This document shows, in pieces, positions 3,493-35,864 of a DNA stretch of 64,000 nucleotides. The stretch spans positions 1,612,001-1,676,000 of the forward strand of contig DASYBM010000004.1 of the NCBI GenBank assembly GCA_036500765.1, read 5' to 3'. Both the position numbers and the translations under genes were made by a program. Below the pieces are notes generated by a model. That model worked only from the letters and a program-made list of their open reading frames with translations. It was not told where the DNA came from and did not search any database. Source of the DNA: Candidatus Sulfotelmatobacter sp. (GTDB taxonomy: Bacteria; Acidobacteriota; Terriglobia; Terriglobales; Acidobacteriaceae). Each line of letters begins with the position of its first letter. The stretch's first letter is position 1.

Positions 3493-5244
3493 TTGTCTGC
3501 TTCGACTAGTCATCTGATTGCTCCGCACGGCGGCGAACTGGTAGATCTGCTTGCCTCAACCGAAAAAGCCGCGGAACTGAAAGCCCACTCTCGCGAGTGG
3601 CCATCCTGGGATCTGACTGCCCGCCAAGTTTGCGATCTGGAGCTGCTGATGAGCGGAGGCTTCTCTCCGCTGCGCGGCTTTATGAATAAAGCCGACTACG
3701 AAGGCGTTTGCCATAACATGCGTCTGGCCAGCGGAATTCTCTGGCCCATTCCGATTACGCTTGACGTCACCGAAGAATTTGCCAAGAAGCTTACGGCCGG
3801 CGGCAGCAAAGTTGCGCTGCGCGACGCCGAAGGCGTCATGTTGGCCGTGTTGCACGTCGAAGAAGTCTGGCAGGCCGACCGCGCGGCCGAAGCCAAAGCG
3901 GTTTTTAACAGCACCAGCAAGGCTCATCCGGGCTCCAACTACACCATGAACATTTCGAATCCATGGTATGTGGGTGGACGCATCGAGGGCTTGCAAGGCC
4001 CTTCGCATTATGACTTCCGCACCCTGCGCCTTACTCCGGCGGAATTGCGGGCTGAATTTGCCCGCTTAGGATGGCGTCGTACGGTTGCGTTTCAGACTCG
4101 CAACCCCATGCACCGCGCTCACGTGGAACTCACCTTCCGCGCTGCCAAGCAAGTCGAAGCCAATCTCCTGATCAACCCCAGCGTGGGCATGACCAAGCCT
4201 GGCGACGTCGACTACTTCACGCGCGTGCGCTGCTACCAACTCCTGCTTTCCAAATTCCCCCAGGGAACCGTGAAGCTCGCTCTTCTTCCGCTGGCGATGC
4301 GCATGGGCGGACCTCGCGAAGCTATCTGGCACGCCTTGATTCGCAAGAACCATGGCTGCACGCACTTCATTGTGGGTCGCGACCATGCCGGACCAGGCAA
4401 CGATACGGCAGGCGATGGCAAGCCTTTCTACGGTCCCTATGAAGCTCAGGAACTTTTCAAGAAGCACCAAGCCGACATCGGCGTGACCATGGTCGATTTC
4501 CAGATGATGGTCTACCTCGACGGCGAGGACCGCTACGTTCCCGACAACGAAGTGAAACCGGGCGACAAGGTTCTGAATATTTCCGGCACCGAACTGCGCA
4601 ACCGGCTCAACGAGGGCCGCGACATTCCCGCGTGGTTCACATACCCGGAAGTTGTGCAGGAACTGCGGCGCAGCTTTCCGCCACGCGCCAAGCAAGGCGT
4701 CACCATCTTCTTCACTGGTCTTTCGGGTTCGGGCAAATCCACCATCGCCAACGTTTTGATGACTAAGTTTCTGGAAGTCGGCGGACGTCCGGTGACGTTG
4801 CTCGATGGCGACCTGGTCCGCAAGCATCTTTCGTCGGAACTGGGATTCTCCAAAGAACATCGCGACATCAACATTCGCCGCATCGGCTATGTTGCGTCGG
4901 AAATCACCAAGAACGGCGGCATCGCAATTTGCGCTCCCATTGCGCCCTACGATGCCACCCGTAAACACGTGCGCGGAATGATCGAGCCTTACGGCGGATT
5001 CATCCTGGTGCACATTGCCACGACGGTCGAAGTCTGCGAGCAACGCGACCGCAAGGGACTTTACGCCAAAGCGCGCGCGGGCATTCTCAAAGAATTCACA
5101 GGAATTTCTGATCCCTACGAAGTCCCGGCGGATGCCAACGTAACCATTAACACCGGCGAGTTGTCGGCCGAAGAAGCCGCTCAGGAAATTATTCTGCACC
5201 TGGAGCGCGAAGGCTTCATCGGCGTCAGTAAGGCCGGAGAGTAA
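3493..5244 (+). CDS. sat/cysC: bifunctional sulfate adenylyltransferase / adenylylsulfate kinase (PAPS synthase)
   Basis: Fusion making PAPS from sulfate and ATP, 583 aa. The N-terminal ATP sulfurylase domain has QTRNPMHRAH (about residues 201-210) and GRDHAGPGND. The C-terminal APS kinase domain has an intact P-loop GLSGSGKST (about 409-417), then DGDLVRKHLSSELGFS and the lid region AICAPIAPY. The APS-kinase half therefore looks active, unlike the degenerate one of fungal sulfurylases. The start is TTG at 3493, set by GGGAGG nine nt upstream; a TTG at 3436 has no such site. It is followed by a TauE-type transporter and a CysQ-type PAP phosphatase. There is no cysH or sulfite reductase nearby, and a sulfotransferase gene lies in the same EPS region, so PAPS may serve sulfation. 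Confidence 0.93.
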   Translation: MSASTSHLIAPHGGELVDLLASTEKAAELKAHSREWPSWDLTARQVCDLELLMSGGFSPLRGFMNKADYEGVCHNMRLASGILWPIPITLDVTEEFAKKLTAGGSKVALRDAEGVMLAVLHVEEVWQADRAAEAKAVFNSTSKAHPGSNYTMNISNPWYVGGRIEGLQGPSHYDFRTLRLTPAELRAEFARLGWRRTVAFQTRNPMHRAHVELTFRAAKQVEANLLINPSVGMTKPGDVDYFTRVRCYQLLLSKFPQGTVKLALLPLAMRMGGPREAIWHALIRKNHGCTHFIVGRDHAGPGNDTAGDGKPFYGPYEAQELFKKHQADIGVTMVDFQMMVYLDGEDRYVPDNEVKPGDKVLNISGTELRNRLNEGRDIPAWFTYPEVVQELRRSFPPRAKQGVTIFFTGLSGSGKSTIANVLMTKFLEVGGRPVTLLDGDLVRKHLSSELGFSKEHRDINIRRIGYVASEITKNGGIAICAPIAPYDATRKHVRGMIEPYGGFILVHIATTVEVCEQRDRKGLYAKARAGILKEFTGISDPYEVPADANVTINTGELSAEEAAQEIILHLEREGFIGVSKAGE

Positions 5245-5276
5245 GGCAGGGAGAGTAACGCGGGGAGGGACCGATT

Positions 5277-6056
5277 ATGTTGCCAGTGATAGCGATCAAA
5301 ATCCTGGTGGGCTTTGGTGTGGGTATCCTCATCGGAATGACTGGAGTGGGAGGCGGCGTTCTAATGCTTCCCATTCTGATCTTCGGCTTGGGCTACCCGC
5401 CGATCGTGGCCGTCGGTTCCGATGCGCTGTTCCAGTTCTTCACCAAAATTCCGGCAGGACTGTTGCACCTGAAGAACGGGACGGTCCGTCGTAAAGTGGT
5501 CCTCGCGCTGGCGGCGGGAAGTATCCCAGGCTCCTTTGCAGGGGTAAAGCTGCTGATGTACATCCGCTCGGTCTACGGTAGCAGCAGTCTTAACAGCTTC
5601 ATCAAGCTGGCGGTGGGTGTGCTGCTGATCGTGATTCCAATTCTGCTGCTGCTGCAGAAAGGAATCGAAGAGCGCATCGCGAATCGTGCGCCGACCATGA
5701 AAGGTTTCGCAGGCATGGTGGCAATCGGCCTCAGCGTCGGTTTTATCGTGGGCATGACCTCGGTCGGTTCGGGCAGCATCATCATGATGCTGCTTCTCTT
5801 GTTCTACAGCTTCCCCCCCAAGATCAATGTCGGGACTGATGTCGTACATGCAGTCATACTCTTCGGAGTAACCGGGTGGCTTCAGTCCAAGGCTGGAAAC
5901 GTAGATCCCAAGCTGGTCGTTTCGCTGCTGATTGGGTCCATTCCCGGGGGGCTGCTCGGTTCGCATCTGGCCACGCGGGTCCCCATGCTCTGGCTGCGCC
6001 GTATGCTCTGCGCTTTGCTGCTGATCACCGGAGCCCGCATGTTGTGGCCTGCTTAA
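5277..6056 (+). CDS. TauE/SafE family membrane transporter
   Basis: Integral membrane protein of 259 aa with the two-repeat TauE/SafE (DUF81) pattern. Each half begins with a Gly-rich hydrophobic segment (GFGVGILIGMTGVGGGVLMLP and a similar GFIVGMTSVGSGSIIMML). About eight membrane helices are expected. Family members move sulfite, sulfonates or sulfate across the inner membrane. The position 32 bp after the PAPS synthase and 31 bp before the CysQ-like gene suggests it handles sulfate or another sulfur oxyanion for this pathway, although the direction of transport cannot be read from the sequence. Confidence 0.85.
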   Translation: MLPVIAIKILVGFGVGILIGMTGVGGGVLMLPILIFGLGYPPIVAVGSDALFQFFTKIPAGLLHLKNGTVRRKVVLALAAGSIPGSFAGVKLLMYIRSVYGSSSLNSFIKLAVGVLLIVIPILLLLQKGIEERIANRAPTMKGFAGMVAIGLSVGFIVGMTSVGSGSIIMMLLLLFYSFPPKINVGTDVVHAVILFGVTGWLQSKAGNVDPKLVVSLLIGSIPGGLLGSHLATRVPMLWLRRMLCALLLITGARMLWPA

Positions 6057-6087
6057 TAACGTTTAACGAATTGAGCGCAAGGACTTC

Positions 6088-6903
6088 ATGACTTCTTCTT
6101 ACTCGAACATTCTCAATCGCATCGAAGCCGCGCTCGACGCCGCTCGCATCGTTTTCGCGCGCTTTACTCCAGGCGCGATTGCGACCGAATACAAGATCGG
6201 CCACGATCCCGTGACCGAGGCCGACCGCGCGGTGGACGCAGTACTACGCCAGAATTTGCTGCGCGACGGCGAGGGCTGGCTCTCGGAAGAGAGCGTCGAC
6301 GACCCCTCACGCCTTGGTAAGAGCCGAGTGTGGGTGGTCGATCCGCTCGATGGCACCCGTGAATTTGTTCAGGGCATTCCCGAGTTCTGCGTTTCCATCG
6401 GATTCGTCGAAAATGGCCGGCCGGTGGCCGGTGGAATTTGCAACCCTGCGACCAACGAGACCATCGTCGGCGCCATCGATTCCGGCGTGCTCTACAACGG
6501 ACAGCCGGCGCGCCCGAGCGAGCGAACCACTTTGCAGGGTTCGCTAATTCTGGCCAGCCGCAGTGAAGTCAAACGTGGCGAGTGGCAGCAGTTCCAGAGC
6601 AGTGACTATCAGATTCGCCCCATGGGGTCGGTGGCCTACAAACTAGGACTCGTCGCCGCCGGCCAAGCCGATGTGACGTTCACGCTGACGCCGAAGAATG
6701 AGTGGGACGTGGCCGCCGGCGCCGCGCTGGTCGAAAGCGCCGGAGGATTCGTCGCCACGCTCGACAACGCTCCGCTGCGTTGTAACAATCGCAATCCGCT
6801 TCTCACCGGCCTGATGGCCAGCGGACCGTTGCTGCGGCAGGAACTGCTGTCGGCCCTGCAATCTCATCTCCCGGCATCGGCGGCTGGCTCTGCTCGCGGC
6901 TGA
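6088..6903 (+). CDS. cysQ: 3'(2'),5'-bisphosphate nucleotidase (CysQ-like, inositol monophosphatase family)
   Basis: Li-sensitive-phosphatase-fold enzyme, 271 aa. The metal-site motif WVVDPLDGTREF (about residues 82-93), the preceding GWLSEESVDD acidic motif and the C-terminal EWDVAAGAALVESAGG are all present. CysQ hydrolyses 3'-phosphoadenosine 5'-phosphate (PAP), the by-product of every PAPS-dependent sulfotransferase. Its place in line with the PAPS synthase and transporter supports that role over inositol monophosphatase, which shares the fold. It is the third gene of the apparent sulfate-activation operon. Confidence 0.85.
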   Translation: MTSSYSNILNRIEAALDAARIVFARFTPGAIATEYKIGHDPVTEADRAVDAVLRQNLLRDGEGWLSEESVDDPSRLGKSRVWVVDPLDGTREFVQGIPEFCVSIGFVENGRPVAGGICNPATNETIVGAIDSGVLYNGQPARPSERTTLQGSLILASRSEVKRGEWQQFQSSDYQIRPMGSVAYKLGLVAAGQADVTFTLTPKNEWDVAAGAALVESAGGFVATLDNAPLRCNNRNPLLTGLMASGPLLRQELLSALQSHLPASAAGSARG

Positions 6904-7013
6904 CGCAGATCGGATCTCCGGCCTTCGGAAGCATCGATCAGTTTCCCGCACAGTATAAAATTTGCGGTTCAGTATCCGAGTCGATTTCCAGGCAGAATCT
7001 GGAGGAGCGGTTC

Positions 7014-7580
7014 ATGCGAGTTCTCGACTTAGGTTGCGGGACCGGACAGGATCTGGCTGCCTGGGGCGTCACCTCTTCGGATTGGGTCACCGGGCTCGAT
7101 ATCGAGTTAGGCCGTCTGCGGATCGCCAAAACGCGATTTTCCGATCGCCGTTTTCTGCAAGCGGTGGGCGAATCGTTGCCCTTCAAAGCTGAGAGCTTTG
7201 GTTTCGTGGTCTCCTCTGTCGCTCTGCCCTATATGAACATTCCGCTCACCCTCGCAGAAATTTATCGTGTGCTCATCCCCGGTGGCGCTCTGTCGTTAAG
7301 TCTTCATCTTCCCGGTTTTACCATGAACGAGTTTGTCCGCCATGCCCTGCCGCGACCGGTTCCCACGTTTTTTCGTCTGTATGTCATGGCGAACGGTCTA
7401 CTGTTCCACTGGACCGGCAACACGATCGGGTTCGCAAATGGAAGAACGGAATCGTTCCAGACCGAGCGCGGAATGCGGATCGCGTTACAGCGAGCCGGAT
7501 TCGTCGATTCTTCATTCATCCGCGGCAGCGGTCCCAGCGGCAGCACATTTACCGTGGAAGCAAGGAGGGCACGCAATTAA
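7014..7580 (+). CDS. class I SAM-dependent methyltransferase
   Basis: Small SAM methyltransferase, 188 aa. It begins directly at the SAM-binding motif I (MRVLDLGCGTGQDLAAWG), followed by the acidic motif GLDIELGRL and the motif IYRVLIPGGALSLSLHLPG. The N-terminal helices that often precede motif I are absent, so it is a short version. The ATG is supported by GGAGGAG a few nt upstream. The substrate is unknown; O-methylation of an EPS sugar is plausible from context. It ends 17 bp from the convergent deacetylase gene. Confidence 0.82.
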   Translation: MRVLDLGCGTGQDLAAWGVTSSDWVTGLDIELGRLRIAKTRFSDRRFLQAVGESLPFKAESFGFVVSSVALPYMNIPLTLAEIYRVLIPGGALSLSLHLPGFTMNEFVRHALPRPVPTFFRLYVMANGLLFHWTGNTIGFANGRTESFQTERGMRIALQRAGFVDSSFIRGSGPSGSTFTVEARRARN

Positions 7581-7597
7581 CCTGAATGCCAAAAGGC

Positions 7598-8656: not shown

Positions 8657-8694
8657 GGATCAGCAGGTTCTCGAAAGGAGTGCCGTAGGATGGC

Positions 8695-10659
8695 TCATCC
8701 GGCGACCGCATTGGTCTGCGCGGTATTTATCGCCGAATCGATTTCGCCGTCGAGAAATACTCTCTGCCATAGTTCGAGATTCAACAATCGCCAGATGCGA
8801 TTGCCGTGATCGCGGCGCCCGGCGCGATGCTCGGCAAAGATTCGCCGGATCGTCTCGATGCGAAAGAGATTTCTTGCCGTGCTGCGCGAATCCGTCAGCA
8901 GCCGCTCAATCTCCTCCAGTTGCGGACCCGCCAGCCAATAGGCCCACGGCGTCGGGAAGCCCATTTTCTTGCGGTAAACAATGTCCGCTGGCAAAAGATC
9001 TTCCACCGCTTCTTTCAGAATAAATTTTCCCGCCATCCCTCGGATCTGCTCGCTCGCTGGAATGCGCGCCGTGAATTCCACCAGCGGATGATCGAGAAAC
9101 GGCACCCGGCTCTCGATCGAGGCTGCCATGCTCATTTGGTCCTGCTTCATCAGCAGTTCAATCAGGTAACTGTTGATGTCGGTATAGAGCAGCCGGTGCA
9201 GCAAGTCTGACGATGTCGGAGAAGACGATCGGGACGACGAACGTTCCCATGCGCTCATCGACCCGGCATAGGGTTGCCCCATACTCGCGAGCGCCTCGGG
9301 CGTCAGCAACTCCGGAAGCTCGCTGCCGGGAAACGCCGAGTAGAAATTGTCGAAATAAAACGACGCCCAGTCCGCGCCATCCTTCATCAGGAATGTATGC
9401 TCCAGTTTGCGGTGCAGCCCGGCAGAAAAAGGCGCAGCGTGCAGCGCCGAGCGCAATCCCTGCCGCAGGAATCCCGGTGTCAGCGTCCGGTACGTCCGGT
9501 CCATTTTCGAATTCAACAGAGTCCACGCATAGCGCGTATAGCCGGCCAGGGTCTCGTCGCTGCCTTCTCCTGTGAGCACAACCGTCACGCGTTCTCGAGC
9601 CAACTTGGCCACGGAATACAAGGACAGACTCGAGGGCCAAACGACGGGTTCGTCTTCATGCCAGATCAACTGCGGCAGGCTGGCGAAAAATTCCTCGCGA
9701 CTCAGACGGACTTCATGATGGTCCGACTTGATGTGGGCAGCGACCTGGCGCGCGTAGGGCAATTCACTGAACTGCTCTTCCCCATAACCGACCGCAAAGG
9801 TTTGAATCTGGTCTCCGCGAATTTTCGTGGCCAGCGCGGCCACGGCGCTCGAGTCCAGCCCGCCGCTCAAAAACATTCCCAGCGGGACCTCGCTCATCAG
9901 ATGCGATTCCACTGCATCTTCCAGTAGTTTTCGGTACCTCTTCACATAGTATTCGTGCGGACGAACTTCGCGATCCACTTCGGTCGTGAGGTCCCAGTAG
10001 CGCTCGATCTTCGGTTCGCCGCGTTCGGAAAGTTGCAGTGTATGCCCGGGCATCAGCTTGCGGATTCCGGCAAACATGGTCTCCGGTCCGGTGACGTAGC
10101 CGAACGCGAGATACTCCGCGAGCGTGCCGCGGTTGAACTCGGCCTCCACATCGGGATAGGCCAGAATCGTCTTGATCTCCGACCCGAACAGGAACGACTT
10201 GCCATCCCAGCGATAGTAAAAGGGTTTAATTCCCAGGCGATCCCGCGCCGCGAACAGTACGCGCTTGCGGCGATCCCAAATCACAAACGCGAACATGCCC
10301 CGCAGATGCGTCACGCAATCGCGGCCATATTGTTCGTACAGGTGGACGATGGTTTCTGTGTCGCTGTGCGTGCGGTAGGTGTGCCCTTGCGCCTCCAGTC
10401 CCCTCCGCAACTCTGCATGGTTGTAGATTTCGCCGTTGAAAACGATCCAGACGTCACGATTTTCATTGGCCAGCGGCTGATGTCCGCTCTTGACGTCAAT
10501 GATGCTCAGCCTACGCATGGCCAGACCGACATTCTCTTCCACGAAGAAGCCCTCGTCGTCGGGCCCGCGATGCACAATGCGGCGGTTCATGCCCGCCAAC
10601 ACGTCTCCCTTGACATGCCAATCGCGCTCGGAAAAAAAGATCCCGCAAATTCCACACAT
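8695..10659 (-). CDS. asparagine-synthase-like glutamine amidotransferase, copy 1
   Basis: Class II glutamine amidotransferase fused to an asparagine-synthase domain, 654 aa. The N-terminal nucleophile Cys2 (MCGICGIF), the glutaminase motif FNGEIYNHAEL and the ATP-pyrophosphatase loop FLSGGLDSSAVA (about residue 265) are intact. In EPS loci such enzymes are thought to amidate a sugar carboxylate, and members tied to exosortase loci form a named family (exosortase A-associated amidotransferase, from memory). A plain asparagine synthetase cannot be excluded by sequence, but two copies inside a polysaccharide locus argue for glycan amidation. It lies 4 bp after the heparinase-type gene. Confidence 0.85.
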   Translation of the reverse strand: MCGICGIFFSERDWHVKGDVLAGMNRRIVHRGPDDEGFFVEENVGLAMRRLSIIDVKSGHQPLANENRDVWIVFNGEIYNHAELRRGLEAQGHTYRTHSDTETIVHLYEQYGRDCVTHLRGMFAFVIWDRRKRVLFAARDRLGIKPFYYRWDGKSFLFGSEIKTILAYPDVEAEFNRGTLAEYLAFGYVTGPETMFAGIRKLMPGHTLQLSERGEPKIERYWDLTTEVDREVRPHEYYVKRYRKLLEDAVESHLMSEVPLGMFLSGGLDSSAVAALATKIRGDQIQTFAVGYGEEQFSELPYARQVAAHIKSDHHEVRLSREEFFASLPQLIWHEDEPVVWPSSLSLYSVAKLARERVTVVLTGEGSDETLAGYTRYAWTLLNSKMDRTYRTLTPGFLRQGLRSALHAAPFSAGLHRKLEHTFLMKDGADWASFYFDNFYSAFPGSELPELLTPEALASMGQPYAGSMSAWERSSSRSSSPTSSDLLHRLLYTDINSYLIELLMKQDQMSMAASIESRVPFLDHPLVEFTARIPASEQIRGMAGKFILKEAVEDLLPADIVYRKKMGFPTPWAYWLAGPQLEEIERLLTDSRSTARNLFRIETIRRIFAEHRAGRRDHGNRIWRLLNLELWQRVFLDGEIDSAINTAQTNAVAG

Positions 10660-10663
10660 GAAT

Positions 10664-13084
10664 TCAGTTTTTCCCTTCCCAGCGTTCTTTTTCCGCGATC
10701 ACATTACCCGCGAGTTGCGGGCTGTCCTTATCCCGATGCATGCCCCGAACCATCTTCCATCCTTCGCGGTCAACTTCCGCCAACTCCGAATTCGAAGAAA
10801 CTACCTCTAAGCGATCCGCACGTTCGATGATCTCGCAGCGCAACATGGCCCGTTTGGCAGTCATAATCGTAAGTTCGCTCCAGCGCACATAGGTTGCGTT
10901 GCAGCAAATTAACGTTGCAGAATCTTCCGTATTTCCCCAGTACAGAAATTCTGCATCGCTGCTCCAAGCGTCCCCCTTCCACGGCTTGCCTTGACCGAAA
11001 AATACATAACTGCGTTCCGATCCGGCCTGGTAGCCGTAGCCAGCAACTGTCGCGGATGCCTCCATCGGAACAATCCTCGCAAGTTTGGGTCGTGGACGCG
11101 AAGTCTCGGAAACCGGCAGCAGCACGGTTACAAACTCTGTCGGAAGTTTCGCTCGTGTCGCGAAGTGCAGCACGCTGTGATTTTCCCGCTTGCCGTACAC
11201 GGGCGAGTGCAACTCCACCTCGGTAATTTGAGTCCATCCGTGGCCTTCCTCGGTCACAAACTGGAGGCCAACCCCGTCGCTCATAAAAACGTCTTCGCGT
11301 CCGCTCACCGGCCTTAGCCCCGGCCCCAGATGCCAAAACAGATCGAGTTGATATTCACCAAAACCAAGGGCCAGGTCACGCACCAGCCAGAAGCCGGTTT
11401 TAAGCGCAAAAACGAAGCGCCGGTGAATCGCAGGATTCGACAATCTCGAATACCCATCGTGGCTGCCCACAAACAGATCGAACGTATTCCCTGCAATCCA
11501 GCCCTCGGCCTGGACGTTCGGCAGTTTGCCCCAACCGAAAGGGCCGTTCGGTTCGGCCTGATCCTGGTCCGCCACCAGCAGAGTGTTGTGTGCCCGAGTG
11601 CCGCGAAAACGATCGCGTCCTCGATCGCTTCCCACGTATTCGAACGTTCCTGAATCCTCGAGCAACGGGAGTCCGTTGCTGCTTGCCGTCAGGCTGAGGG
11701 CATCGGCGTGTCCGTGGCCTGCGGTATGCGCGCCTTGCGGGCCGGCATCTATCACCAATTGCAGCTTGGCGTCCTGCCCTGTCATCACGTAGAGTCCACT
11801 CCCGCGGAATGCAACCGAGTTCCCCGCAGGTTCAACGGGGGGCAAACGGTTGAATTCTTCGCTGCCTGTTTCTCCCAGCAGCCACAGGGTTTCCTCGCGA
11901 GGACCCCCAGCAATCGTCTTGAAGTCGCCGCGCCCGAACAGAATCGCGCCCGTCGCGAGCGGATCAAGGAGATGCTCCACCCGGTTTCGCGAGGGATCGA
12001 ACAGCCGGCCCCCATCGTCGTCGCCCAGCCGCGGGATGGTGCCACTTCGAGCCAGCATTGCCAGTGGCTCCAGCATGCGCTCCAAGGTCTTATCGAACTC
12101 AGATGAAGTTGAGATCTGGTTCACCGATGCCAGCACCGCGGTATGAAGGAAGAAGTCCAGGGCGTACACGTGATAATAGATCGACTGCTCGAAATGAAGC
12201 CCGTCGCTTTGTACTTGCCGCTCAGCCTCCTGTTGCACGATCTGCAATCCGCGCCGCTGCCAATCCCAGGCGGAGGGAATCTCAGGGCACAGCGTCCCGA
12301 TGAAAAACAGCGCGACCGCCTCGCCCAGCAGATGGGTGTTCGGTGAAAAATATGTAGATAGATAGCAATCGATATGCCGCCCGGAGACTGCCAGGGCGCG
12401 CAACCAATCCGCTCGAAACCCAGCCGGCATCGCTGGCGAATCCTCGAGAAGAAAATAAAGCCACAGCCAAGACAGACTGCGAAACGCAACTTCCAGACTG
12501 CTGGCCCAGTTAATGCCGATGGGATATGGATTTTCACCGTGCCAGTGATGCCACTGGCGAAACAGTTCCACGCCGAACTTCTCGTTGCCCGTCAGGCGGA
12601 ATGCTTTTGCCAGTGTGACCAGATGTTGGTGCCGGTTCAGTTCCCACGTAACTTTACTGTCTCCCACCTCGTCGAAATCGAGATACTTTATCCGGTACCA
12701 AGGCAACTTCGGGGCTCGGATTCCGTGGACGCGGTCGCAATGCCAATCGATCTCCTCTCCATAGTCCACGCCGTCGTAGCCCAGCAAGTCGAAACGATGC
12801 GCGCAGATTCGCTCGGCACGTTCGACGATCTGCTTTGCCTCCTGTGGGAACGACTGCCGCAATCTCTCAATCAGACCCGGAACCTCATCGGTCGAGAAGA
12901 AGAACGTCGGCTGCGATCCCGAAGCAACCGAGTTCATCGCAGGCGCAAACTCCGCACCCGCCTTGTAGCGCGCCAGGTCGAGACGCGCCATGGCCAACTG
13001 GCGGATTCGGTCACCAATTTCCCCGTGCTCCATCCCTAGTGCGCGCCGATAGACGCGCTTCCAGTCCCCCGCCCGCGAACTCAT
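10664..13084 (-). CDS. heparinase II/III family polysaccharide lyase
   Basis: Predicted uronate polysaccharide lyase, 806 aa. An N-terminal alpha/alpha-toroid (about residues 90-380, with SPNTHLLGEAVALFF carrying the catalytic Asn/His region) is followed by the beta-sandwich heparinase II/III domain with the motif GHGHADALSLTA and LLEDSGTFEY (about residues 450-475). The family cleaves uronic-acid glycosidic bonds by beta-elimination (heparin, alginate). No signal peptide is evident at the annotated ATG. Its stop/start overlap with the upstream GT4 gene (ATGA) and its nearness to an AlgD-like dehydrogenase suggest it trims or edits a uronate-containing EPS, as AlgL does for alginate. Exact substrate unknown. 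Confidence 0.85.
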   Translation of the reverse strand: MSSRAGDWKRVYRRALGMEHGEIGDRIRQLAMARLDLARYKAGAEFAPAMNSVASGSQPTFFFSTDEVPGLIERLRQSFPQEAKQIVERAERICAHRFDLLGYDGVDYGEEIDWHCDRVHGIRAPKLPWYRIKYLDFDEVGDSKVTWELNRHQHLVTLAKAFRLTGNEKFGVELFRQWHHWHGENPYPIGINWASSLEVAFRSLSWLWLYFLLEDSPAMPAGFRADWLRALAVSGRHIDCYLSTYFSPNTHLLGEAVALFFIGTLCPEIPSAWDWQRRGLQIVQQEAERQVQSDGLHFEQSIYYHVYALDFFLHTAVLASVNQISTSSEFDKTLERMLEPLAMLARSGTIPRLGDDDGGRLFDPSRNRVEHLLDPLATGAILFGRGDFKTIAGGPREETLWLLGETGSEEFNRLPPVEPAGNSVAFRGSGLYVMTGQDAKLQLVIDAGPQGAHTAGHGHADALSLTASSNGLPLLEDSGTFEYVGSDRGRDRFRGTRAHNTLLVADQDQAEPNGPFGWGKLPNVQAEGWIAGNTFDLFVGSHDGYSRLSNPAIHRRFVFALKTGFWLVRDLALGFGEYQLDLFWHLGPGLRPVSGREDVFMSDGVGLQFVTEEGHGWTQITEVELHSPVYGKRENHSVLHFATRAKLPTEFVTVLLPVSETSRPRPKLARIVPMEASATVAGYGYQAGSERSYVFFGQGKPWKGDAWSSDAEFLYWGNTEDSATLICCNATYVRWSELTIMTAKRAMLRCEIIERADRLEVVSSNSELAEVDREGWKMVRGMHRDKDSPQLAGNVIAEKERWEGKN

Positions 13085-14334: not shown

Positions 14335-14499
14335 GCTCCTTCATACTAGCGGCAATTCCCCGCCGTTGCACAGCACAACCGTGGTGTCAGAATATTAAGT
14401 TCACGTTAAAAGACGGGCTGCAACACCCGCGCGGTTTGCCGCTATTCGCGCCGTCGGCTATCTTAGAACTTCGCCATTCGAAAGACGAGAAGGGTACAA

Positions 14500-15825
14500 A
14501 TGGGCCGGACGATCAGCATTTTCGGGTTAGGTTATGTGGGAACCGTCACGGCTGCTTGCCTGGCGCACCAGGGAAACCGGGTTACCGGAGTCGACCTCAG
14601 CCCGGCCAAGGTCGCGGCCCTCGACAGCGGACGCAGTCCCATTGTTGAGCCAGCGGTGGCCGACCTGATTGCCGAATCGCAGAAGGCCGGCCGGCTCCGC
14701 GCCACGTCCGATTCCGAAAAAGCTGTTCTCGACACCGAGATCTCCGTCCTCTGCGTGGGCACTCCCAGCATGCGCAACGGTAAACTCGACTTGGGCCACA
14801 TCGGCCCGGTCTGTCAGGAAATCGGAGCCGCCCTCCGCAAGAAAGATTCCTTCCACCTCATCGTACTGCGCAGCACGGTATTGCCGGGCACTGCGGAGAC
14901 CATCGTCGTTCCCACTTTAGAGAAAGCGGGCGGCAAGAAAATCGGACGCGACTTTGGAGTTTGCGTGAATCCTGAGTTCATGCGCGAGGGCACAGCGGTT
15001 GCCGATTTTCTTGAGCCTTCCATCACTATCATTGGAGCCGCCGATCCCGCGCACAGCCAGATTCTTCGCGACCTCTACGCCTGGGTTCCGGGCCGCGTTT
15101 TTGAAACCTCATTCCGCTCCGCCGAAATGGCGAAATATGTCTGCAACGCCTGGCACGCCGTGAAAGTCTCCTTTGCCAACGAAGTCGGCACGTTAGCCAA
15201 GGAGTTGGATGTCGATGCCGAAGCGGTGGTCGAGATCTTCACCGCCGATACCAAACTGAATATTTCTTCGAGTTACCTCAAACCTGGATTTGCATTCGGC
15301 GGCTCGTGCCTGCCCAAAGATGTGCGCGCTTTGACCTATCGCGCCAAGGAACTCGATCTCGAGTTGCCGCTCTTTGAATCGATTCTGCCCAGTAACGAGG
15401 CCCATATCGATCGCGCGCTCGACATCGTATTAAGCACGGGAAAGAAAAATGTCGCCATGCTGGGCCTCAGCTTCAAGGCCGCCACCGACGATCTGCGGGA
15501 GAGTCCGCAGGTGCAACTAGTCAAGCGTTTGATTGGAGAAGGTTGCAAGCTCCACATCTGGGACGACAATGTTTCCCTGGGACGCCTCATCGGTTCCAAC
15601 CGGCAATACATCGAAGACGTCATTCCCCATATCGGTTCCCTGCTTTCTTCGAATCTGGCGGACGTGCTGGCAAACGCCGACGTGGTTATTATTGGCACGC
15701 GCGGCATCGAGCGGAAAACTCTCGAAGCCCAACTCCGCCCCAGCCACTTCGTAGTCGATCTGGTAAACCTGGAAAAGGCTCGGCGCCCGGCCTCGTCGAA
15801 CTCGTACGAGGGGTTGTGCTGGTAA
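14500..15825 (+). CDS. algD: GDP-mannose 6-dehydrogenase (AlgD-like nucleotide-sugar dehydrogenase)
   Basis: NAD-dependent four-electron nucleotide-sugar dehydrogenase, 441 aa, oxidising C6 of the sugar to a carboxylate. It shows the NAD-binding start SIFGLGYVGTVTAACLA, the catalytic Cys motif GFAFGGSCLPKDVRALTYRA and the C-terminal GLSFKAATDDLRESP. The segments SPIVEPAVADL, VLRSTVLPGT, KYVCNAWHAVKVSFANE and the final GLCW follow Pseudomonas AlgD closely (recalled from memory), which favours GDP-mannose over UDP-glucose as substrate. The product would be GDP-mannuronate. It opens the rightward unit, with AGAAGGG upstream of the ATG. The 165-bp gap to the leftward unit must hold divergent promoters. 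Confidence 0.82.
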   Translation: MGRTISIFGLGYVGTVTAACLAHQGNRVTGVDLSPAKVAALDSGRSPIVEPAVADLIAESQKAGRLRATSDSEKAVLDTEISVLCVGTPSMRNGKLDLGHIGPVCQEIGAALRKKDSFHLIVLRSTVLPGTAETIVVPTLEKAGGKKIGRDFGVCVNPEFMREGTAVADFLEPSITIIGAADPAHSQILRDLYAWVPGRVFETSFRSAEMAKYVCNAWHAVKVSFANEVGTLAKELDVDAEAVVEIFTADTKLNISSSYLKPGFAFGGSCLPKDVRALTYRAKELDLELPLFESILPSNEAHIDRALDIVLSTGKKNVAMLGLSFKAATDDLRESPQVQLVKRLIGEGCKLHIWDDNVSLGRLIGSNRQYIEDVIPHIGSLLSSNLADVLANADVVIIGTRGIERKTLEAQLRPSHFVVDLVNLEKARRPASSNSYEGLCW

Positions 15826-15836
15826 TTCACTGACCA

Positions 15837-17090
15837 ATGAAAATACTCTGGGTCAAGGCAGGAAAGCTGTTGCCGGTCGACACCGGAGGCAAGATCCGGT
15901 CGTTTAATATTCTGCGGCATCTGGCGCGAAGCCATGATGTCACGCTCCTGTCGTATTATGGCGGACCTCGCGACCTGGAGTACGAAACCGCCGTCACGCA
16001 GCGTCTGCCGGGCGCCGTAACCATCCACACCGCCGCGCCCGAGGGCGGTCTCGCGCAGTCTCTGGATTACGTTCTCCGTCTTCCGTCCACGGCTCCCTAC
16101 GCGGTCAGAAAGTTCACGCACGCAAGCGTTCGACAAGAAGTTGCTCGCCTTCTGTCCGATCGCAGCCTCGACGTGGCCGTGTGCGATTTTCTTTCGGCGT
16201 CGCTGAATTTTCCCGCGAGTCTGTCTGCGCCCGTCGTTCTCTTTCAACACAATGTCGAAACCATGCTCTGGAGGCGCATGGCGCGCACCGAAACATCTCC
16301 CCTCCGAAAGCTCTCCTACAATATTGAGTCCCGGAAAATGTCGTCCTATGAAACCAGCGCCCTGCGAAGATTTCACCATGTCATCGCGGTCTCCGATAAT
16401 GATCGCGACGCGATGCTGACGTTATCGCCCCGCTGCCCGATTACAGTCGTCCCTACCGGCGTCGACACTGAACAGTATCAGGTCGCGCCTCCGGCTTCCG
16501 CCGCTCCTCCCGTCATCGTCTTTACCGGCTCCATGGATTGGGAACCGAACATCGACGCCATGGAATATTTCTGCCGCGACATCTGGCCAACCATTTTGGC
16601 GTCTGTTCCAGCCGCGCGCTTTCAGATCGTCGGCCGCAATCCCCATCCGCGTGTGCAACGTCTCGCCTCGGCATCGGTCGAAGTAACCGGAACGGTCCCT
16701 TCAGTCGCCAGTTATCTGCGATCGGCCACCGTGGTGATCGTTCCGCTACGCATCGGGGGCGGTACGCGACTCAAGATTTTCGAAGCCATGGCCATGGCCA
16801 AGGCTATGGTTTCTACCTCCATCGGCGCGGAAGGTTTGGACGTAACTCATGGCCGCGACCTGCTGATCGCCGACGATGCGGCATCATTTGCCGCCGGCAT
16901 TCTACAGTTTCTGCGTGACCCCGAACTGCGCCGCAGTTGCGAACAAAATGCTGCCGCGCTCGCCGCGAAATACGATTGGTCGCAGATCGCGCGGCTCTTC
17001 GCCGAAGTGCTCCGCGATTCCGCGGCCGCTTTCCGCTCCGGTCAAATCAAAGAGAAAGAGCGCATCGCCATTTCACCGGTGCAGCCGTGA
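15837..17090 (+). CDS. GT4 family glycosyltransferase (exosortase-locus sugar transferase type)
   Basis: GT-B glycosyltransferase, 417 aa. The N-terminal motif PVDTGGKIRSFNILRHLA (about residues 13-30) and the donor-site region VVIVPLRIGGGTRLKIFEAMAMAKAMVSTSIGAEGL are typical of the GT4 members often found in exosortase/PEP-CTERM EPS loci (Stp1-type, recalled from memory). The gene starts 12 bp after the dehydrogenase stop and ends in a GTGA overlap with the ATP-grasp gene, so the three are translationally linked. Confidence 0.87.
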   Translation: MKILWVKAGKLLPVDTGGKIRSFNILRHLARSHDVTLLSYYGGPRDLEYETAVTQRLPGAVTIHTAAPEGGLAQSLDYVLRLPSTAPYAVRKFTHASVRQEVARLLSDRSLDVAVCDFLSASLNFPASLSAPVVLFQHNVETMLWRRMARTETSPLRKLSYNIESRKMSSYETSALRRFHHVIAVSDNDRDAMLTLSPRCPITVVPTGVDTEQYQVAPPASAAPPVIVFTGSMDWEPNIDAMEYFCRDIWPTILASVPAARFQIVGRNPHPRVQRLASASVEVTGTVPSVASYLRSATVVIVPLRIGGGTRLKIFEAMAMAKAMVSTSIGAEGLDVTHGRDLLIADDAASFAAGILQFLRDPELRRSCEQNAAALAAKYDWSQIARLFAEVLRDSAAAFRSGQIKEKERIAISPVQP

Positions 17091-18286: not shown

Positions 18287-18322
18287 TCAGACGAAGATCA
18301 TCGTCGGCGGGAACATTTCGAC

Positions 18323-19114: not shown

Positions 19115-19320
19115 GTTTGGCGTCTTTTCCACAGGCCCAACTGCTTTCTCTCCCGCGCTTTTAGGGCCCTGGCCCATCGGACATCTCCCAGTGTGTCCTT
19201 TCGTGCGCCAACTGGCCAGTGTCCTCTGTTATCTATTCCCATCCTCCCTCTCTCTCTAGATTAAATCGAGGCGAATCGCAAATTAGATTCCCCGCGACTC
19301 GATCATGTGAGGGCCCCCAA

Positions 19321-22515: not shown

Positions 22516-22704
22516 AACCATACAAATTACCCAATAGTGCTCGCGGTCGGGCGGGTGGGATCGGGAAATCTCATCACACTCGTCCCAGCCGCCGCCCCAC
22601 TTTCTGCCGGTCGTTCTTGCCCGATCGCTGCCCTTCTCACGGAGATTCGGTATCTGATAAATTGAAGTGAGGTTTTTCTTGCGCGGATTCTCCTCACGTG
22701 CCCA

Positions 22705-24558: not shown

Positions 24559-24608
24559 GCGAGGCTCGGTAACCGACACGCAAAGAATCGCGCACCAGAC
24601 TGGAGATC

Positions 24609-26792
24609 ATGAAGCAACTGCTGCGAAAGGGGTTGAGCACGATCGTCGTCGATGAGGTTCCGGACCCTGTCGTCGCGCCTCATCACGTCATTGTCCGTCC
24701 CCATTACTCCCTGATCAGCAGCGGCACCGAGACGGCCAGCATTCATCGCGGGGGAGCGCTGGGAGCCGTCGCCGAAAATCCCTCCTACATCGGCAAGATC
24801 CTCGATGTGATGAGGAACGAAGGCCCGCTACGGACAACCCGCGAGGTGCTGGCGAAATTCAGCGAGTATGCAGTGCTTGGCTATTCCGGAGCCGGTGTCA
24901 TCATCCAGAAACACAGCAATGTTCTCGACCTCGAAGTAGGCGACCACGTAGCTTATGGCGGCGAGGGTACCGGGCATGCTGAAGCAATCCTGGTGGGCCA
25001 AAATCTGGTTGCCAGGATTCCCGACAATGTAGCTTTCGAACATGCTTGCTTCACCACTCTCGGCAGCATCGCCCTGAACGCAGTTCGCATTGCCAATATC
25101 TCCTTAGGGGAGAAGGTCGCCGTAATTGGCCTGGGATTAGTTGGGCAATTAATTGCCCAACTCGCCCGCCTGCAAGGTGGATTTGTCGTCGCCACTGACC
25201 TCAAACCGGACCGCGTCGCACTGGCTCGCCAACTCGGCGCGGACTCTGCCCTCCTGGGCGGCGGACAGTTTTCGCAGCAAGTAAGTTCGATCACCGGCGG
25301 AATCGGCGTAGACTGCGCCATCATCGCGGCCGCCGCCAAGTCGGACGCCCCCTGCCGCGTGGCTGTCGAAATTTGCCGCGACCGCGGACGCATTGTCGAC
25401 GTCGGCGCCGTCGAACTCAACTTTCCCTGGTACGAAAGTTATCTCAAGGAAATTCAGGTTTTCATGGCGCGCGCCTACGGTCCGGGGAGTTACGACTCCA
25501 CCTACGAAAAACAAGGGCGAGATTATCCCCTGCCCTACGTGCGCTGGACCGAAAAACGCAACATGGAAGAGTTCCTCCGTCTCGCCGCTCAGGGGCGATT
25601 GCAAATCGAGGGCCTGACCACGCACCGCTTCCCTCTCGAAGACGCGCCCCGGGCTTACGACGTAATCATGGACTCCACTCAGAATAGTCTGGCAGTCCTG
25701 CTCAAGTATCCCGCCGCGGACGTTGCAAACGCGGTCGCCGCTGCGCCGCCGGCAGGCAGAATCGAAGTCAATCGCAGCGACGCTGGTGGTTCTGAATTCG
25801 GCGTGGCCCTGGTCGGAGCCGGCAATCTCGCGCGCTGGGTTCACCTGCCGAATCTCAAGAAGACGCCAGGCGCGCGCCTGCGCGCAATCCAGTCCGGCAG
25901 TGGCTCGCGCGCCAAAAGTTACGCACTACGCTTTGGCGCGGAGTACTGCACCTCGGACTACGGCGAAATTCTAAGCAACCCTGCGGTGCAGGTCGTCGTC
26001 ATCGTTAGCCGTAACCAACAACACGCCGCTCAGGCCCTGGCGGCTTTGCGCGCCGGAAAACACGTTTTCGTGGAAAAGCCGATGGCTCTCACCGAAGAGG
26101 AATGCCGTGAACTCGCGCAGGCCGTGCAGGAGTCCGGCAGGCAACTTACGGTCGGCTTCAATCGCCGCTATGCTCCAAGCTATATTAGCCTCAAACAGCA
26201 AATCGCGAAGCGCACCGCGCCCGCGGTCCTCAACTGCCGCGTGAATTCTCCCGGCATCTCAGGTTCCTACTGGATGGCTGATCCCGTTATCGGCGGTGCT
26301 ATTCTCGGAGAGGCCTGCCATTTTGTCGATCTGATGTACTGGCTCCTCGAGTCGGAACCGGTCGAGGTGTTTGCATCCTCGCTCCCCACGGGCGCGAAAG
26401 ATCCCATCGGCCAGAATAACCTCGTCGCCAGCTTTTCCTTCGCCGATGGTTCTATCGCCAATCTAACCTACTGCACAGTCGGCAGCCGCACTTCAGGCGG
26501 AGAGCGCGTCGAAGCGTTCGCCTCCGGAGTGGGCGCCTCGGCGGAAAACTTCCGCGAGTCTGTCGTCCGCGCCGGCCTGGTGCGCAAGCGCACCAGCTGG
26601 TTTGCGGAAAAAGGCTACGACGCCCAGATGCAGGCGTTCTTCGCCGCCCTGCGAAAAGGCAAACCCGCAGACATTAATGTTCGAGACGGCGTCCGCGCCA
26701 CTCTCGGTTGCCTGCGCATGTTGCAGTCCGCGCGCGAACACTCTCCGTGCGCGCTTGACCTCGACCGCTTTCTGGCTGCCCCTGAGCCATGA
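24609..26792 (+). CDS. bi-domain oxidoreductase (MDR alcohol-dehydrogenase-like plus Gfo/Idh/MocA)
   Basis: 727-aa fusion. Residues ~1-370 are a medium-chain dehydrogenase/reductase with the NAD(P) motif VAVIGLGLVGQLIAQLARL. Residues ~395-727 are a Gfo/Idh/MocA oxidoreductase with VALVGAGNLARWVHL, the catalytic-lysine motif EKPMAL and the His-containing GEACHFVDLMYWLL. The MDR half lacks the usual zinc ligands: the Cys-Gly-x-Asp site reads SSGTET and the GHE site reads GYSGAG. It is therefore likely zinc-independent. Such fusions occur in EPS loci and may carry out coupled redox steps on a nucleotide-sugar. It lies 50 bp after the beta-helix gene and overlaps the next gene (ATGA). Confidence 0.83.
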   Translation: MKQLLRKGLSTIVVDEVPDPVVAPHHVIVRPHYSLISSGTETASIHRGGALGAVAENPSYIGKILDVMRNEGPLRTTREVLAKFSEYAVLGYSGAGVIIQKHSNVLDLEVGDHVAYGGEGTGHAEAILVGQNLVARIPDNVAFEHACFTTLGSIALNAVRIANISLGEKVAVIGLGLVGQLIAQLARLQGGFVVATDLKPDRVALARQLGADSALLGGGQFSQQVSSITGGIGVDCAIIAAAAKSDAPCRVAVEICRDRGRIVDVGAVELNFPWYESYLKEIQVFMARAYGPGSYDSTYEKQGRDYPLPYVRWTEKRNMEEFLRLAAQGRLQIEGLTTHRFPLEDAPRAYDVIMDSTQNSLAVLLKYPAADVANAVAAAPPAGRIEVNRSDAGGSEFGVALVGAGNLARWVHLPNLKKTPGARLRAIQSGSGSRAKSYALRFGAEYCTSDYGEILSNPAVQVVVIVSRNQQHAAQALAALRAGKHVFVEKPMALTEEECRELAQAVQESGRQLTVGFNRRYAPSYISLKQQIAKRTAPAVLNCRVNSPGISGSYWMADPVIGGAILGEACHFVDLMYWLLESEPVEVFASSLPTGAKDPIGQNNLVASFSFADGSIANLTYCTVGSRTSGGERVEAFASGVGASAENFRESVVRAGLVRKRTSWFAEKGYDAQMQAFFAALRKGKPADINVRDGVRATLGCLRMLQSAREHSPCALDLDRFLAAPEP

Positions 26793-27838
26793 GAGTACTT
26801 CTGCTCGGGCCATATCCGCCCCCGCACGGCGGGGTGCAGACGAATCTCGTTGCCATTCGATCTTTTCTGCTGAAGCGCGATGTCCCTTGCGCCGTCGTCA
26901 ACATCACTCGCCATCGCAAGCCCGACGCGGATGAAGTCTACTACCCAGCGAACCCGTTTCAACTCCTTCAACTTCTCGCACACCTGAAATATGACGTAAT
27001 CCACTTGCATATCGGCGGGATGCTGACGACGCGCCTTCTTTCGCTCGCGTGGATTTGCACTGCCTGTCCCGGCGCGAAATCCGTGATGACGTTTCACTCC
27101 GGCGGCTTCCCTTCCACGCCGGAGGGCCAGGCGCTTGGGCCAGCATCGTTCGCAGGATTCGTGTTGCGCAGGTTCAATGGCCTCATTGCTGTGAACTCCG
27201 AAATCATGGGCTTCTTCCAAAAAATGGGAGTCCCTCCTCAACGTATCCGCCTAATCTCGCCGTACGCATTCCTTCCGCGCGAGCCGTCCTCTTCCTTGCC
27301 CGCAGCGCTCGCAGACTTCTTCGCCAGCCACAATCCAGTTCTGAGTTCGGTCGGCTTGCTCGAGCCCGAATATGATCTGCCTCTCCAGATCGAAGTCCTG
27401 CCGCAAGTTCGCCAGCGATTCCAGGGTGCGGGACTATTGCTGATCGGTTCCGGCAGCCTCGAAGCCAGCCTGCGAACTCTCATTCACTCTAGTCCGTGTG
27501 CCCAACACATCCTCCTTGCGGGTGATGTCCCGCATGAATCGACCGTGCAGGCCATCTCCCGTTCCCGCCTCATGTTGCGCACTACGCTCTATGACGGTGA
27601 CGCTTTATCCGTCCGCGAAGCGCTGCAACTGGGAACGCCGGTCATTGCCTCCGACAACGGCATGCGGCCCGCCGGAGTCAGCCTCATACCGAAATCCGAT
27701 CCGCAGGCACTTTTGCGGGCCGTCGAGCAGGAACTCGATCGTCCGAGCGAGCGCAAGGCGATCGCCGGCGGCGACGAAAGCAATCTTCAGGCCGTTTTTG
27801 ATTTCTACCGGGACATCGTCGACGGGAAGAGCAGGTAA
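26789..27838 (+). CDS. GT4 family glycosyltransferase
   Basis: GT-B glycosyltransferase, 349 aa, last gene of the rightward unit. The N-terminus MRVLLLGPYPPPHGGVQTNLVAI is the classic GT4 start. The donor domain contains SRSRLMLRTTLYDGDALSVREALQLGTPVIASD with the E-X7-E type arrangement. It overlaps the bi-domain oxidoreductase stop by 4 nt. It converges on the sulfotransferase gene with only 25 bp between the stop codons and no obvious terminator hairpin there. Confidence 0.85.
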   Translation: MRVLLLGPYPPPHGGVQTNLVAIRSFLLKRDVPCAVVNITRHRKPDADEVYYPANPFQLLQLLAHLKYDVIHLHIGGMLTTRLLSLAWICTACPGAKSVMTFHSGGFPSTPEGQALGPASFAGFVLRRFNGLIAVNSEIMGFFQKMGVPPQRIRLISPYAFLPREPSSSLPAALADFFASHNPVLSSVGLLEPEYDLPLQIEVLPQVRQRFQGAGLLLIGSGSLEASLRTLIHSSPCAQHILLAGDVPHESTVQAISRSRLMLRTTLYDGDALSVREALQLGTPVIASDNGMRPAGVSLIPKSDPQALLRAVEQELDRPSERKAIAGGDESNLQAVFDFYRDIVDGKSR

Positions 27839-27863
27839 GGATTCGACGTTACTTTGCGCAATC

Positions 27864-28901
27864 TTAAATCCACGACAGATCCCGCGTAACCAGCAACTGT
27901 CCAAGAGGCGTCTTAGCTTTAAGATATAACTTTGCGTCGAAATACTTTCGGTACATGGCCCGCATGCGCCGCAGGTCGGCTCGGCTTAACGCGTCGCGAT
28001 CCTTAGTCGCCAGTTCATATCCATTCTCTTCCAGCGTATGTCCGACTAATCCCTCGAAGGTCGCCAGTTCTTCTTCCGAATATCCGCTGCGCCAGCGCCC
28101 GGTCGGATTAAAATCCGCCTTCGACGCGTCGCCAAAAGAACTGTTCGGCGCGCTCACCGAACCAACGCCCGCTTTCCGGATTTCGTCATAGTCGAGTTTC
28201 TGCCCGATGAACTCGCCCAGTCGGGTCAAAGTTTCCTGCGGCTTGCCGACCAATTCCTCAAAATGAACTTCTGTATAATCCCCGCCTAAATCTCGGCCGT
28301 CCCGCCGCCCTGTGTTCACCATCCATTCCCAGTAGAGTCCCGCAACCATCTTTGGAGACTTCCGATCCCACGGAAGAGGGTGAATGTACCCTTGCTTCTC
28401 GGTCGAGAGCGCAACATCCCGCCCATCGCGAATAATATGAACGACCAGCGCCTCAGGGATGGTTTCTTTGATGCGATGCAAGTGCAGCAGATGCTCCGGG
28501 GTCGTGTCTGCCCAGCGCTGCACGCCCTGCTTCCGCGCCATCTCCGACATGATGATCCGCAGGAAATCCCCGCCGTTCCGGCATTCGCTCATCACCTTCG
28601 CCGCAATCTCTTCTTTATCCAATCCCGATAACGTGAAGAGCCGGCTGTCATACCATGCTTCGAGCAGCCGCATCTTGTTGCCGTCCTGGGACAAATCCCC
28701 GAATCGCGGCTCCAGCAGGTTAATCGCATTGGATTCGACCCGGTATACCGCAAAATTCCCGGCAGACAACAGCATGTGATAGAGCAGCGTCGTTCCCGAC
28801 CGCCCGCAGCCCACCACAAACACCGGCGCTACGCTGCGGCCGCCCGCTTGCGCGTCATGGTCTACGCCCGTGGTTGAGATATTGGGAATCATCGTCATCA
28901 T
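27864..28901 (-). CDS. PAPS-dependent sulfotransferase family protein
   Basis: Sulfotransferase of 345 aa. The 5'-phosphosulfate-binding loop VVGCGRSGTTLLYHML (about residues 30-45) and the 3'-phosphate-binding motif VVHIIRDGRDVALS (about 130-145) are both intact, so binding of PAPS is well supported. Family members sulfate hydroxyl or amino groups of glycans, lipids or small molecules. It is the last gene of the long leftward EPS unit, 13 bp after the second amidotransferase. With the PAPS synthase and PAP phosphatase at the left end of the locus it makes a complete sulfation set. No signal peptide or membrane helix was seen, so it would act in the cytoplasm on the lipid-linked repeat or its precursors. 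Confidence 0.85.
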   Translation of the reverse strand: MMTMIPNISTTGVDHDAQAGGRSVAPVFVVGCGRSGTTLLYHMLLSAGNFAVYRVESNAINLLEPRFGDLSQDGNKMRLLEAWYDSRLFTLSGLDKEEIAAKVMSECRNGGDFLRIIMSEMARKQGVQRWADTTPEHLLHLHRIKETIPEALVVHIIRDGRDVALSTEKQGYIHPLPWDRKSPKMVAGLYWEWMVNTGRRDGRDLGGDYTEVHFEELVGKPQETLTRLGEFIGQKLDYDEIRKAGVGSVSAPNSSFGDASKADFNPTGRWRSGYSEEELATFEGLVGHTLEENGYELATKDRDALSRADLRRMRAMYRKYFDAKLYLKAKTPLGQLLVTRDLSWI

Positions 28902-35856: not shown

Positions 35857-35864
35857 TTCCCCCC

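Follow-up and report, generated by a model that had tools for sequence, protein, structure and literature searches.

Introduction

Gene sets for sulfating surface polysaccharides have been described in several bacteria, and cassettes similar to the one studied here are already known from the capsule cluster of Cobetia marina and an exopolysaccharide (EPS) cluster of Actinoplanes missouriensis. The sulfated polymer structure of the C. marina KMM 1449 capsule has been established (PMC11766843), and synechan, the EPS of Synechocystis 6803, has been proven to be sulfated (PMC8205485). For the capsule of Vibrio sp. KMM 8419, genes making 3'-phosphoadenosine 5'-phosphosulfate (PAPS) together with sulfotransferases were regarded by the authors as a hallmark of sulfated polysaccharide clusters (PMC11641403). 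In A. missouriensis, deletion of AMIS_7390 severely impairs sporangium formation; one of the two sulfotransferase mutants is normal by scanning electron microscopy, and sulfation there is a candidate only (PMC13390465). Pontiella (Verrucomicrobiota) provides a further such case, and sulfated glycoconjugates have been reported from the EPS of granular sludge. In a literature search judged by titles and abstract openings, we found no report of sulfated EPS in Acidobacteria. Here we describe three adjacent genes, Sat-CysC, TauE and CysQ, in a 64,000-nucleotide stretch of an acidobacterial genome, Candidatus Sulfotelmatobacter sp. (the window; C4:1612001-1676000 in a 5.04 Mb assembly, 99.3% complete). 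From gene content and position, we consider it probable that they are a sulfation cassette integrated in an exosortase-A EPS region, and that the PAPS they would make is used by the sulfotransferases of the region on extracellular polysaccharide.

An earlier note made from the letters of this DNA had described sulfated EPS as scarcely known beyond marine bacteria and rhizobial Nod factors, which omits cyanobacteria such as Synechocystis (PMC8205485) and the soil actinomycete candidate (PMC13390465).

A sulfate-activation cassette in an EPS region

The first gene of the cassette encodes a fusion of ATP sulfurylase and adenosine 5'-phosphosulfate (APS) kinase. The protein scored 917 bits against NCBIfam NF004040 (cut-off 669) with both domains at full length, and PF14306, PF01747 and PF01583 all matched. 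Its start codon is a TTG at position 3493 with GGGAGG upstream. The P-loop GLSGSGKST in the APS-kinase half is intact, as the earlier note had read it. Fungal homologues of the bifunctional enzyme have lost APS-kinase activity; the kinase half of Sat-CysC is predicted from its sequence to make PAPS, and likely does.

Sat-CysC, TauE and CysQ lie on the same strand with gaps of 32 and 31 bp. The TauE-type gene holds up as a member of its family (PF01925). DUF81, the family name used for the CysZ protein discussed below, we take to be TauE/SafE. The third product had been proposed as a CysQ-type phosphatase for 3'-phosphoadenosine 5'-phosphate (PAP). CysQ is indeed its best NCBIfam model and the motif DPLDGTREF is present; the score of 129.9 bits lies under the curated cut-off of 228.8, a weak point of the sulfation assignment, and the protein is therefore named CysQ-like only, with its activity predicted. 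There is just one other PF00459 protein in the genome, whose best model is inositol monophosphatase, likewise below cut-off.

The sulfotransferase at the end of the EPS assembly run was also correctly recognized in the earlier note. Its gene starts 13 bp past asnB1, PF13469 matches far above cut-off, and both PAPS-binding motifs are present (GCGRSGTTLLY and HIIRDGRDVALS), with core residues invariant across a 43-sequence alignment. The AlphaFold model (pLDDT 81.6) matched the folds of PAPS-dependent sulfotransferases in the PDB, including PAP-bound ones. PF13469 matched ten stretches, which group into nine genomic places; the match on contig C13 is only partial. Four of the nine fall in C4:1602010-1640826, within 39 kb around Sat-CysC, and three of these four (C4:1602010, 1610432 and 1611319) are within about 10 kb ahead of window position 1. 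Judged by protein family, sulfotransferases are the evident PAPS users in this genome.

The surrounding genes identify an exosortase A EPS locus: XrtA scored above cut-off and has Wzz, kinase and initiating transferase genes nearby, while several XrtA-specific models in the region matched only below cut-off. PAPS genes and a sulfotransferase thus occur within one polysaccharide gene cluster, the mark of a polysaccharide sulfation cluster.

Co-occurrence and linkage in related genomes

The comparison set contained 121 genomes (the own genome and 120 relatives), and the absences reported here hold at the sensitivity of the profile and sequence searches. Carriers of the window sulfotransferase family were the 35 genomes with a best match above 280 bits; any match was obtained in 46 genomes, and the 11 having weak matches only were counted as non-carriers. 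Fusion carriers were the 54 genomes having Sat-CysC or its pieces. They include fragment-only assemblies (e.g. G010, G021, G032 and G034; all pieces at least 72% identical) and exclude G098, whose fusion is distant (43% identity).

The fusion was found in 34 of the 35 sulfotransferase carriers (own genome included), compared with 20 of the 86 genomes without the family, so the expected co-occurrence in relatives was observed. Among 28 genomes from other genera of the family, all six carriers had the fusion versus 5 of 22 non-carriers (Fisher p=0.0012). Of the 34 double carriers, 17 had both genes on one contig, with start coordinates separated by 3.3-35.3 kb; the number is 16 when G067 is set aside, whose linkage depends on a weak 45-bit fragment located where a contig stops. 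The random expectation of such linkage is about 1.4% each in a 5 Mb genome.

Gene order could be read at 29 of the 54 fusion loci. The order Sat-CysC, TauE, CysQ was present in 23 of them and TauE directly followed Sat-CysC in 24. CysQ was within two genes of Sat-CysC in 27; one of the other two loci is cut by a contig end and one is without both TauE and CysQ. In G097 the order is a GT4-type glycosyltransferase, Sat-CysC, TauE, CysQ and a sulfotransferase, and in G014 CysQ is followed by two sulfotransferases. At four loci (L093, L094, L095 and L097, from G048, G054, G052 and G104, respectively) CysQ comes directly after Sat-CysC with no TauE between, and these genomes are also without the window sulfotransferase family; the presence of TauE may be tied to sulfation.

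Neighbourhoods were counted at 20 Sat loci, in stretches of about 10 kb on either side (shorter at contig ends), with 20 loci around cysH as the control, 18 from the same 20 genomes and two from others. Using profiles built from the own genome's sulfotransferases, sulfotransferases were detected at 11 of the 20 Sat loci, 14 of these 20 being from genomes that carry a sulfotransferase on the same contig and partly picked for that, and at none of the 20 cysH loci. At least one EPS-type gene was found at 16 Sat loci versus no cysH locus. In 9 of the 20 loci, a phosphopantetheinyl transferase (PPTase) gene precedes Sat-CysC at a distance of no more than two genes. Since PPTases also release PAP, CysQ may serve two PAP sources.

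Several results weigh against tying the cassette to sulfation. Inside the genus the association of fusion and sulfotransferase was not significant (p=0.14). Twenty of the 54 fusion genomes are without the sulfotransferase family, and the cysH match in 18 of these 20 fits a Sat that is shared with cysteine synthesis. G011 is clearly unlinked: its Sat contig measures 187 kb, and the sulfotransferase is on a different one. Most of the remaining split cases come from fragmented assemblies. At the six Sat loci from genomes outside the group with a same-contig sulfotransferase, none was present in the fetched stretch and an EPS-type gene was present in two. The 20 Sat loci were not drawn at random, and the less selected figure is the 17 of 34 on one contig.

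The cysteine pathway and a proposed fork at APS

The earlier note assigned the sulfate-activation genes to glycan sulfation and not to cysteine synthesis, observing no cysH, cysI or cysD/N in the window. We likewise obtained no match to cysH, a cysI-type gene or cysD within the window; cysN got no separate search. The genome contains one PF01507 protein, cysH, on contig C16, in an intact-looking operon of a NirA/Sir-type reductase, a cysG-type gene, a cobA-type gene and cysH. The one NIR_SIR protein of the genome is beside cysH; the best models for the reductase are nitrite-reductase ones, all below cut-off, and CysI of Corynebacterium glutamicum is nitrite-reductase-like as well (PMC1266029). 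The sole PF01747 match in the genome was the window Sat-CysC (C4:1615493), and no CysD was found by profile search. Because of this single ATP sulfurylase, the lack of a CysD match and the presence of the cysH operon, Sat should also supply cysteine synthesis. Hence, the exclusion of cysteine synthesis was rejected, while the assignment to glycan sulfation is consistent with the position of the cassette in the EPS region and its co-occurrence with sulfotransferases.

CysD was above cut-off in 32 of the 121 genomes and in none of the 54 fusion carriers. This points to a replacement of CysDN by the fusion in the lineage. In G098 the distant fusion coexists with CysD and, if counted, is one exception to the mutual exclusion.

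Two cysteine pairs are present in CysH, CC (120-121) and CxxC (203-206). The iron-sulfur ligands CC...CxxC mark APS-type reductases. The best PDB match of CysH was an adenosine phosphosulfate reductase (2goy), with which both pairs align. Both were conserved in 30 of 30 cysH loci (the best 30, own included; 86 of the 121 genomes have a match) and in four further genomes (G049, G070, G071 and G097), 34 of 34 in total. CysH of C. glutamicum carries APS motifs (PMC1266029), and a bifunctional enzyme of B. subtilis has been noted (PMC6286981). Given the iron-sulfur motif of APS reductases, cysteine synthesis should need APS only and not PAPS, in which case CysC together with CysQ points to the sulfotransferases. 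The whole-genome check for a cysH pathway depending on Sat-CysC therefore gave a divided answer: dependence is to be expected for the Sat half and not for CysC and CysQ.

Alternatively, Sat-CysC, TauE and CysQ could be ordinary cysteine-assimilation genes that lie near EPS genes by chance, with PAPS going to cysteine as in E. coli. The single ATP sulfurylase and the absence of CysD from the fusion carriers agree with this, and cysteine synthesis is probably indeed a function of the fusion in the 18 genomes that have a cysH match and no member of the sulfotransferase family. The model matches of CysH also lean this way, as it passed only NF002537 and TIGR00434, both named phosphoadenylyl-sulfate reductase, and fell below the APS-specific TIGR02055 (230.4, cut-off 235.3); the PAPS-specific TIGR02057 was also below (215.8, cut-off 254.2). 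The second PDB match, 7lhr, has the same cysteine pairs and was deposited as a PAPS reductase. However, the iron-sulfur motif should leave CysC and CysQ unneeded for cysteine, many genomes have the cassette next to sulfotransferase and EPS genes whereas cysH has such neighbours at none of its 20 loci, and in three near-complete genomes the cassette is present although neither cysH nor a sulfite/nitrite reductase was detected. We consider a chance neighbourhood unlikely.

These three genomes came from the fusion genomes at least 95% complete, 4 of 30 of which were without cysH while 0.62 were expected from incompleteness. No PF01507 match was found in any of the four (G001, G025, G053 and G065), and no PF01077 (NIR_SIR) match in G025, G053 and G065 (96, 99 and 97% complete, respectively). 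In G025 and G053 sulfotransferases are within 8 kb of the cassette together with Wzx and deacetylase genes, and the region also holds Wzy-like, asnB, UGD and glycosyltransferase genes. The Sat locus of G065 stops at a contig end, with no sulfotransferase there. Less favourable to a loss of sulfate reduction is G001 (9% contamination), which keeps two NIR_SIR matches without cysH, and assembly gaps could explain some of the missing cysH genes. The two NIR_SIR matches of G001 are separate frames side by side (G001:C107:27438-29218). Judging from gene content, the cassette cannot serve cysteine via cysH in G025, G053 and G065, unless the assemblies miss the operon.

Acceptor of the sulfotransferases

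Gene position favours EPS as the acceptor. EPS-type genes were found within 5 kb of 14 of the 17 copies of the window sulfotransferase examined, and two of the three exceptions are at a locus edge. L022, L024 and L025 retain the run from Wzz to the Wzy-like gene, asnB1 and the sulfotransferase. Close relatives of the sulfotransferase were found by contig search at four loci in Acidobacteria/Terriglobia metagenome assemblies; among the protein matches listed, the name given is Candidatus Sulfotelmatobacter for two (75-76%) and Candidatus Dormibacteraeota for one (74%).

Two of the three upstream sulfotransferases are of PF00685 type. They are preceded by a PPTase, a one-module nonribosomal peptide synthetase (NRPS; C-A-T-TE) and a Wzx-like flippase (L016:11750-18116 on C4, just upstream of the window). 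NRPS and Wzx genes related to these adjoin Sat-CysC in G007, G022 and G036. Near the end of contig C16, another region resembling a polysaccharide locus encodes a Wzy_C ligase and two sulfotransferases (L018:5382-13484).

The sulfotransferases could act on the NRPS product, a lipopeptide or aminoacyl group, instead of EPS. The upstream genes form one run that ends just ahead of window position 1, and in G007 and G036 NRPS and Wzx directly follow CysQ, in line with such a role. Against it, the window sulfotransferase closes the EPS assembly run, its relatives are mostly close to EPS-type genes, and the presence of a Wzx-type flippase suggests a glycan that is lipid-linked. An NRPS product as the acceptor is quite improbable.

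The nearest solved folds to the window sulfotransferase were tyrosylprotein sulfotransferases (TPST), with a TM score of about 0.5 (at most 0.53 by query length) and 16-18% identity, which counts against the reading as EPS sulfation. With these top matches at low TM, the fold search was rejected as proof of the acceptor; the fold match supports the sulfotransferase reaction and does not point to sugar. Among bacteria, RaxST sulfates protein tyrosines. A TPST-like role on protein tyrosines is very unlikely for the window sulfotransferase, as its TPST matches are all remote and its gene is positioned in the EPS run.

Genes of the region

Coordinates are given in Table 1. Two XrtA-system-type asparagine-synthase-like amidotransferases and a heparinase II/III family protein are encoded at window positions 8695-13084 and 28915-30897, and may mean that uronic acid is amidated and that the polymer contains uronate.

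Table 1. Cassette, sulfotransferase and EPS genes, by position in the window.
Feature	Position	Strand	Remarks
Low-molecular-weight protein tyrosine phosphatase (Wzb-like)	2..637	+	directly after upstream sulfotransferase pair
Sat-CysC, bifunctional ATP sulfurylase/APS kinase	3493..5244	+	NF004040, PF14306, PF01747, PF01583
TauE/SafE membrane protein, predicted to carry sulfate or sulfite	5277..6056	+	PF01925, 152.7 bits
CysQ-like PAP phosphatase, predicted	6088..6903	+	inositol-phosphatase superfamily
UDP-glucose/GDP-mannose dehydrogenase, predicted uronic-acid supply	14500..15825	+	
PEP-CTERM/XrtA glycosyltransferase, stp1-like	15837..17090	+	TIGR03087 below cut-off
GT4-type glycosyltransferase adjoining sulfotransferase	26789..27838	+	
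PAPS-dependent sulfotransferase (Sulfotransfer_3)	27864..28901	-	PF13469, 96.3 bits (cut-off 27); last gene of EPS assembly run
asnB1, XrtA-system-type amidotransferase, asparagine-synthase family	28915..30897	-	TIGR03108 below cut-off
Wzy/O-ligase-like protein, exosortase A associated	30981..32330	-	TIGR03097, below cut-off
GT2-type glycosyltransferase	33210..34334	-	models matched below cut-off
Initiating sugar transferase	34456..36054	-	PF02397 above cut-off
Polysaccharide tyrosine autokinase	35865..36797	-	TIGR01007 above cut-off; XrtA-specific TIGR03018 below
AAA ATPase of EPS locus	36794..37747	-	
Wzz chain-length determinant	37772..39319	-	PF02706 above cut-off
Exosortase A	~43603-44406, start approximate	+	TIGR03109 212.6 bits, cut-off 208

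Proposed pathway and significance

In the proposed pathway, TauE would carry sulfate into the cell, a direction suggested by likeness to CysZ of C. glutamicum. From what is known of the enzyme families, Sat would turn sulfate into APS, CysC would phosphorylate APS to PAPS, and CysQ would clear the product PAP after the sulfotransferases had moved the sulfuryl group onto the repeat unit or a linked glycan, the presumed acceptor. The pathway would fork at APS, where the reductase of the distant cysH operon, with its APS-type motif, would take APS directly towards sulfite for cysteine. The Sat half would serve both ends and is probably shared between sulfation and cysteine synthesis, while CysC and CysQ would serve sulfation. 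We infer the flow of PAPS, the shared use of Sat, the direction of TauE, the acceptor and the sulfate on the polymer from the sequences.

A bolder extension, which we put forward tentatively, is that in this lineage the only sulfate-activating enzyme was relocated from the vicinity of the cysteine genes into a sulfated-glycan island. Surface sulfation would then be the main sink for sulfate, with cysteine synthesis living on the shared APS, and some members would have dropped sulfate reduction entirely and would activate sulfate for no purpose other than modifying the slime.

If the cassette does serve EPS sulfation, sulfated EPS would be a trait of a large branch of Acidobacteria known mostly from metagenomes. 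Producers could be searched for by the signature Sat-CysC, TauE, CysQ beside XrtA/Wzy and sulfotransferase genes, and the loci supply new candidates for polysaccharide sulfotransferases. The lineage also seems to keep sulfation and cysteine synthesis apart from APS onward, a separation that can be tested.

Comparison with known systems

The cysteine genes resemble the cys cluster of C. glutamicum, which has a nitrite-reductase-like CysI, an APS-reductase-like CysH and the DUF81 membrane protein CysZ, a likely sulfate permease; there, the assimilation genes are in one cluster, and the parts of the paper examined contain no sulfotransferase (PMC1266029). The xss cluster for synechan shares a Wzx/Wzy-type EPS system and two sulfotransferases with the present locus. 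It differs in belonging to a cyanobacterium, and the word PAPS is absent from the main text, with no PAPS-making gene in the examined parts (PMC8205485). In the soil bacterium A. missouriensis, the Sat/APS-kinase-family gene AMIS_7390 adjoins the wps-1 Wzx/Wzy EPS cluster with its two sulfotransferases. AMIS_7390 is under different transcriptional control, however, and the examined text parts name no CysQ or TauE (PMC13390465).

The Vibrio sp. KMM 8419 capsule cluster also combines PAPS genes with sulfotransferases, but its cysC, cysN and cysD are second copies, whereas the Sat-CysC described here is the only copy found (PMC11641403). The polysaccharide cluster of C. marina KMM 1449 contains PAPS genes, cysQ, a sulfate permease and a sulfotransferase, as does the present region with its TauE-type candidate carrier. 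It uses cysN/C and cysD in place of the Sat-CysC fusion, and it serves an ABC-transporter capsule in a marine bacterium, whereas the genes here lie in a Wzx/Wzy-type region with exosortase A (PMC11766843).

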